A stretch of DNA of 64,000 nt from Salinarchaeum sp. Harcht-Bsk1. Lineage in GTDB: Archaea; Halobacteriota; Halobacteria; Halobacteriales; Salinarchaeaceae. Below, in pieces: positions 62,126 through 62,606 of the stretch; the first letter of the stretch is position 1; each line of letters opens with the position of its first letter. The notes beneath the pieces were generated by a model. The model was not told the DNA's origin, searched no databases, and worked only from the letters and a program-made list of their open reading frames with translations. The position numbers and the translations under genes are program-made. The stretch lies in NCBI RefSeq assembly GCF_000403645.1, contig NC_021313.1:2499014-2563013 (forward strand), given 5' to 3'.

Positions 62126-62149
62126 CTGGCCTCGGTTCCAGCTTGCGGA

Positions 62150-62310
62150 TTTCATCGCAATGCATAAGCCGACCACTGACCGATTTTGAACTGCGCCACG
62201 GTGGCAGAGTCCGGCCGAACGCAGCGGCCTGCAGTTCTGTCGGACTCGCTGTCGCTCGCCCGACAGCGTCGCACCCTCGCTTCGCTCGCGTGCGACAGCC
62301 GCCCATCCCC
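62150..62310 (+). pseudogene. Interrupted tRNA-Cys copy with duplicated promoter
   Basis: 62150-62194 repeats the 45 bases upstream of the intact gene (62320-62364). 62195-62234 is the 5' half of tRNA-Cys (identical to 62365-62404) up to G37, and 62297-62310 is the following 14 bases (A38 onward). Between them, 62 bases made of two tandem hairpins (62237-62266 and 62268-62296) sit exactly at 37/38, the canonical archaeal intron site. The T arm and acceptor 3' strand are lost, so it is probably non-functional. Confidence 0.8.
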
Positions 62311-62364
62311 TCGCGTGGTTTTCATCGCAACGCATAAGCCGGCCAGTCTCGGATTTGTACCTGC

Positions 62365-62440
62365 GCCACGGTGGCAGAGTCCGGCCGAACGCAGCGGCCT
62401 GCAGAGCCGCCCATCCCCGGTTCAAATCCGGGCCGTGGCT
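62365..62440 (+). tRNA. tRNA-Cys (GCA)
   Basis: Acceptor GCCACGG pairs with CCGTGGC, discriminator U; anticodon stem GCGGC/GCCGC around loop CTGCAGA, anticodon GCA; T arm CCCGG-TTCAAAT-CCGGG. No CCA encoded, no intron. Its 5' half and upstream region are duplicated at 62150-62310, and its 3' end recurs at 62467-62494 (inverted) and 62536-62559 (direct). Confidence 0.96.
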
Positions 62441-62449
62441 TGCTGCGAC

Positions 62450-62467
62450 GAACGAACGTGAGGAGCG
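62450..62467 (+). repeat. 18-base motif shared with the tRNA-Gly locus
   Basis: GAACGAACGTGAGGAGCG, identical to the reverse complement of 28045-28062. It forms the loop between the GTGGCTTGC and GCAAGCCAC arms at 62435-62475, where the left arm is the tRNA-Cys 3' end itself. Confidence 0.8.
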
Positions 62468-62559
62468 CAAGCCACCGCCGGATATGAACCCCGGAAGTCG
62501 CAGCGGCCGAGCGGAGCGAGGCCGACCGTCTTCCTCCGGTTCAAATCCGGGCCGTGGCT
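62467..62559 (+). repeat. Inverted then direct copies of the tRNA-Cys 3' end
   Basis: 62467-62494, read in reverse complement, is an imperfect copy of the tRNA-Cys T arm and acceptor end including the following TTGC. A short hairpin follows (CGGCC/GGCCG, loop GAGCGGAGCGA, around 62504-62523). Then 62536-62559 is an exact 24-base direct copy of 62417-62440. Confidence 0.8.
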
Positions 62560-62606
62560 TTCCGTTCGATACCTCGGTGCGCGTCCTGAACGATGCCGCT
62601 TCATCG

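Follow-up and report, generated by a model that had tools for sequence, protein, structure and literature searches.

Analysis of the tRNA-Cys locus of Salinarchaeum sp. Harcht-Bsk1, together with a search of 392 Halobacteriales genomes, showed that the interrupted tRNA-Cys copy lying just upstream of the intact gene is a recurring, patchily distributed module and more than private local decay. At about even odds (a probability of roughly 0.5), we interpret the module as a gene-restoring insert, or else an equivalent local duplication, located within the anticodon loop of the one tRNA-Cys gene. Positioned between the original nt 40 and 41, the block would comprise two hairpins, a 3'-half stub (nt 41-54), and a further promoter with nt 1-40 repeated behind it. 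The 5' half of the original gene would thereby be stranded upstream as a tRNA impossible to complete, and the working tRNA would be read from the promoter and 5' half of the block, joined to the original 3' half.

In the window (the whole 64,000-nt stretch analyzed, from the complete 3.26-Mb haloarchaeal chromosome of the host, G000), a direct repeat of 88 nt with 89% identity (62147-62234 and 62317-62404) spans the promoter region and nt 1-40 of tRNA-Cys, the upstream copy lying 170 bp 5' of the intact gene. The tRNA part of this repeat is 100% identical between the two copies (62195-62234 and 62365-62404). The only intact tRNA-Cys occupies 62365-62440 and matches Rfam RF00005 with 50.1 bits; ARAGORN places its GCA anticodon at gene nt 37-39, so that a break after gene nt 40 falls at the canonical position 37/38. 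A sequence-only reading of this DNA had described a promoter region and 40 bases of tRNA-Cys repeated upstream, a break after G37, 62 nt with two hairpins, and resumption at A38 for 14 bases before the T arm is lost, all of which was borne out: beyond the insert, the upstream copy continues with AGCCGCCCATCCCC, corresponding to tRNA-Cys nt 41-54 and identical to 62405-62418. The features are as follows.

62147..62194, plus strand: promoter region of the upstream copy (direct repeat D1)
62161-62169, plus strand: TATA-like box TGCATAAGC of the upstream copy, at -34 to -26
62195..62234, plus strand: tRNA-Cys nt 1-40 (acceptor 5' strand, D arm, anticodon-stem 5' strand, and loop to G37), from identity to the intact gene
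62235..62296, plus strand: 62-nt insert at canonical 37/38, beginning TTC, with homologous inserts in eight other genomes
62237..62266, plus strand: hairpin A, CTGTCGG/CCGACAG, arms 62237-62243 with 62260-62266
62268..62296, plus strand: hairpin B, GTCGCAC/GTGCGAC, loop CCTCGCTTCGCTCGC, arms 62268-62274 with 62290-62296, its end abutting A38
62297..62310, plus strand: tRNA-Cys nt 41-54 (anticodon-stem 3' strand, variable region, and start of the T stem; direct repeat D4, 100%)
62311..62318, plus strand: TCGCGTGG, without a T arm; perhaps a remnant of the acceptor 3' strand
62317..62364, plus strand: promoter region of the intact gene (direct repeat)
62331-62339, plus strand: TATA-like box CGCATAAGC of the intact gene, at -34 to -26
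62365..62440, plus strand: intact tRNA-Cys (GCA), from ARAGORN and Rfam RF00005

The short tail after nt 54 could be what is left of the acceptor 3' strand; its counterpart in the congener G001 reads TCTCACGTGG. Perfect 7-bp hairpins, taken singly, are common in the window (121, versus 67-103 in Markov-1 sequences), so the two hairpins by themselves are weak evidence. The repeat and its conservation in other genomes are far beyond chance.

Searches with a DNA pattern and subsequently with a covariance model trained on eight copies recovered the layout in 8 of the 392 genomes, with scores of 75-152 bits for the carriers versus at most about 63-69 for intact tRNA-Cys genes. These are G000 and G001 in one family (f1), G005, G118, G142, G270, and G211 in a second (f4), and G100 in a third (f12); a decayed copy in G154, a congener of G100, brings the occurrence to nine genomes, which belong to five genera in three families. 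Model matches in G040 and G073, which begin at the intact tRNA and extend into downstream sequence, were left out of this count. An initial broad pattern scan of contigs yielded a single true copy, in Halorhabdus amylolytica (L141; the same copy as in G270), the remaining matches being mostly chance hits in GC-rich bacteria. In all eight intact copies, CTGCAG is followed by T(T/A)C at the break, and the tRNA sequence picks up again at AG(C/G)C, with inserts of 59-127 nt (142 nt in the decayed copy), and the T arm and acceptor 3' strand of the upstream copies are absent or replaced. The 37/38 junction, whose conservation in related genomes the sequence-only reading had made its point of reference, is thus common to all nine genomes at a single base.

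Two Halorhabdus genomes, one filled (G142) and one empty (G074), match nearly base for base through the promoter, here called P1, and nt 1-40. G142 alone then carries the hairpins, nt 41-54, a hairpin at the T position, a second promoter (P2), and a second nt 1-40 ahead of nt 41-76. The block therefore lies exactly between nt 40 and 41, and the tRNA-Cys gene stays whole. The empty G074 gene has P1 of G142 as its promoter. P1 is therefore the promoter that the filled gene had originally, and its working copy is now placed behind P2. The site is also empty in G194, G197, and G318. Downstream of tRNA-Cys, the flanks of G142 and G074 differ. Recombination between the nt 1-40 repeats would exactly regenerate the empty site, which means that the direction, gain or loss, is not proven; in the mechanism that we propose, such recombination between the 40-bp repeats would later remove or multiply the block and would also prevent the two 5' halves from diverging.

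The promoters bear on whether the module arose in one step. In G142, G118, G270, G100, and G211, P1 shows no relation to P2 (global alignment over 48 nt gives 40-45% identity), whereas the tRNA parts of the two copies are 95-100% identical in the same genomes. This is at odds with a rather unlikely alternative, in which tRNA-Cys was duplicated in tandem, a palindromic, transposase-free mobile repeat of the PATE/SMR kind entered the anticodon loop of the first copy, and this copy subsequently shed its T arm and acceptor strand. The two promoters resemble each other (79-88%) in G000 and G001, as would be expected if the unit itself had been duplicated again; we propose that this happened once more in Harcht-Bsk1, giving both copies the same promoter, and the remnant of a third tandem unit beside the unit in G001 counts in favor of the gene-restoring insert. 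The duplication scenario would account for the persistence of nt 41-54 3' of the hairpins and for the T-position hairpins of G211, G270, and G142, which resemble remodelled T arms. It also draws on the existence of mobile repeats of this kind in haloarchaea (PMC3119063) and on the dispersed hairpins of the host genome that share the loop CGAGCGAAGCGAG (31 exact copies). However, the 62-nt insert has no second copy in its own genome at an E value of 0.001 or less, only the loop motif recurring, and a break common to nine genomes would require that the insertion was single and ancient or that it spread as a unit. On balance, we lean somewhat toward an origin as one insertion over tandem duplication followed by hairpin insertion.

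PATEs and SMRs are short, non-coding, transposase-free haloarchaeal mobile repeats with palindromes near both ends and no target duplication (PMC3119063). The insert is likewise short and non-coding, has palindromes near both ends (the two hairpins fill it, with no inverted terminal repeat), and shows no target duplication around its junctions, CTGCAG-TTC and GAC-AGCC. Unlike those repeats (PMC3119063), it is single in its genome, its hairpins abut the junctions, and its mobility is putative; given the lack of a second copy, we do not assign it to this group. The 31 occurrences of CGAGCGAAGCGAG lie partly within repeated intergenic elements, and around this motif we observed dispersed intergenic palindromic repeats of about 90-130 bp (L314, L321-L324; L311, L326, L334; L316, L317). 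The purine strand of these repeats contains d(GCGAAGC), flanked by tandem GA; d(GCGAAGC) forms a very stable DNA mini-hairpin. A literature search with the CGAGCGAAGCGAG string returned only unrelated work on plants, animals, and viruses.

Several observations count against the gene-restoring reading. No integrase was found among the eight flanking ORFs scanned in the window, and no free or vector-borne form was detected in plasmids, phages, or IMG/VR with the probes used. The block also includes nt 41-54, for which an ordinary attP would have no need, and its hairpins are conserved above neutral sequence, which passive debris would not predict. A plasmid, phage, or virus carrier was considered and rejected, as BLAST gave no match; pattern matches in IMG/VR had no tRNA-Cys context and scored at most 27.7 bits, versus 130 for a true copy.

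Archaeal introns of the bulge-helix-bulge (BHB) type are recognized by a 4-bp central helix between two 3-nt bulges, with helices at the junctions. The sequence-only reading had offered two options, a decayed intron-bearing gene and an insertion favoring this position. The first would make the 62 nt a former BHB intron; the position is exactly canonical, and insert lengths of 59-142 nt would be plausible. We scored BHB motifs with the cut placed after the second bulge nucleotide, and two genuine introns of the same genome served as positive controls: tRNA-Gln and tRNA-Met (G000:C1:2490865-2490968 and 928354-928458), with introns of 30-31 nt, gave perfect outer, central, and inner helices (4/4/4) at 37/38. 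At the junctions of the upstream copies, by contrast, the central helix had 1/4 pairs in seven of the eight intact copies and 3/4 in G211, and a free scan found no proper BHB in any of the eight. No intron was seen in any intact tRNA-Cys of the related genomes examined, and removal of the insert would leave an incomplete tRNA, the T arm and acceptor 3' strand being absent or replaced as well. The intron option thus failed, and we consider it very improbable and reject it. The other option fared better: the break at 37/38 in nine genomes and the placement of the G142/G074 block at that same base make insertion the better of the two.

Both hairpin stems carry compensatory changes. Across eight genomes, seven base pairs of the two stems are changed on both sides (three in hairpin A and four of seven in hairpin B), and hairpin B is paired in 100% of cells; its GTCGCAC/GTGCGAC becomes GTGCCGC/GCGGCAC in G005, GTCGACC/GGTCGAC in G211, and GTCACAC/GTGTGAC in G100. 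The covariation score was 0.311 versus 0.090 in shuffles, none of 500 shuffles reached it, slid controls were at background, and RNAalifold recovered both stems unprompted. The hairpins are 92% identical between G142 and G118 (left flank, 69%; P2 segment, 70%) and 95% identical between G000 and G001 (left flank unalignable; downstream, 55%), and their loops are near-identical among the three Halorhabdus carriers. Such conservation above the neighborhood is a real argument that the hairpins may be under constraint and may do something. Correction of palindromes at the DNA level could explain the stems, although it would not easily explain the near-identical Halorhabdus loops.

This conservation could be interpreted as the mark of a functional structured RNA, in which the tRNA-Cys 5' half, with its GCA anticodon, precedes the two hairpins; such a transcript might, for instance, imitate a tRNA and thereby titrate CysRS, a modification enzyme, or an anticodon nuclease. 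Besides the covariation and the conserved loops, this interpretation is favored by the TATA-like box before the upstream copy, which is kept in seven of nine genomes (in the window, both copies have it at the same distance) and from which we predict that the upstream copy may be transcribed in most carriers. We nevertheless consider this reading unlikely. Decay of the upstream copy is observed in two genomes: G270 has AACCTCACT at the aligned position of the box, against AACATAAAT in empty relatives, and G154 has lost the box along with much of the half, including the D arm, so that the upstream half is dispensable in both. The anticodon stem of the upstream copy is broken in G270 and G005 without compensation, and very close relatives have an empty site. 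Palindrome correction could keep the hairpins perfect, and gene conversion with the intact gene could keep nt 1-40. A conserved half-tRNA product is unproven and would not be essential in G270 and G154; the upstream half is most likely a by-product. An Rfam search over the feature gave nothing above threshold except the intact tRNA. H/ACA and C/D guide RNAs were rejected as candidates, since no curated match was obtained and neither k-turns nor box elements were visible by eye. More speculatively, and with considerable doubt, one could imagine a hairpin module that enters haloarchaeal tRNA genes at the anticodon loop, brings a promoter and 5' half that keep the gene whole, and leaves behind a tRNA-Cys half that is transcribed together with the two conserved hairpins attached to it and has its own function.

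Repeats also occur on the 3' side of tRNA-Cys. In the window (62417-62560), the last 25 nt of the gene are repeated exactly 119 nt downstream, and between these direct repeats lie an inverted partial copy of the 3' end (at about 62467-62485) and a GAGCGGAGCGAG hairpin. The same direct-inverted-direct zigzag follows tRNA-Cys in many Halobacteriales families, with at least two extra copies in G285, G168, and G097. Another, low-scoring tRNA of the host genome (L309, G000:C1:2859298-2859700) has two extra 3'-end copies downstream, spaced by similar hairpin segments, indicating that the 3'-end repeat process is not specific to tRNA-Cys. Within the speculative reading just given, these repeats of tRNA ends, which surround similar hairpins, may represent another form of the process that produced the anticodon-loop module. 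Mobile DNA classically lands in tRNA genes, and in archaea it mostly does so at their 3' end. tRNA-Cys is itself a landing site of large islands, with copies of nt 32-76 lying 58 kb (G124:C8) and 25 kb (G180:C1) away; on G074:C1, nt 53-76 recur about 75 kb downstream, which would be consistent with an island at the 3' end.

Compared with known systems, the module resembles archaeal BHB introns at 37/38 in position only; the upstream copy lacks a bulge-helix-bulge, and its second exon is incomplete. This serves as a warning that not every interruption at 37/38 is an archaeal intron. In split tRNA genes of the Nanoarchaeum type, the 5' half ends at position 37 and carries a trans-pairing tail, with a matching 3'-half gene and no intact gene. 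The upstream copy shares the 5' half ending at 37; however, it stands beside an intact gene, a complementary 3'-half gene was not found, and palindromes take the place of the trans-pairing tail. Partial tRNA genes are also left by the integration of mobile elements, with fragments kilobases away across an island (PMC9897764). A tRNA fragment beside or flanking a restored full gene is common to both situations, but here the fragment is a 5' half just 170 bp away, upstream of the full gene, and the hairpins stand at a fixed base. The closest geometry is that of pTN3-like, suicide-type integration in Thermococcales, in which, according to the review PMC8371274, the tRNA 5' half is the attB, the tRNA is restored, and the promoter comes to lie on the element side; the same review describes this integrase geometry as unique in archaea. 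As there, the identity block is a tRNA 5' half ending in the anticodon loop and an uninterrupted tRNA is restored. We found an attL/attR-like sharing of the 5' half (the direct repeats of nt 1-40) and a restored tRNA (G142/G074), and P2, with its TATA-like box, is unlike P1 in most carriers, P1 and P2 being alike in the window. Unlike the pTN3 type, the inserted block measures only about 170-240 bp (130-200 bp between the repeats), has no integrase gene and no known element body, and includes nt 41-54; for these reasons we do not assign it to that type. The present and absent alleles in near-identical genomes make the module testable, and, if our interpretation is true, a very small recurring block that splits tRNA-Cys at one base and mends it from the 5' side would extend this rare 5'-half mode of integration to an enzyme-less element.
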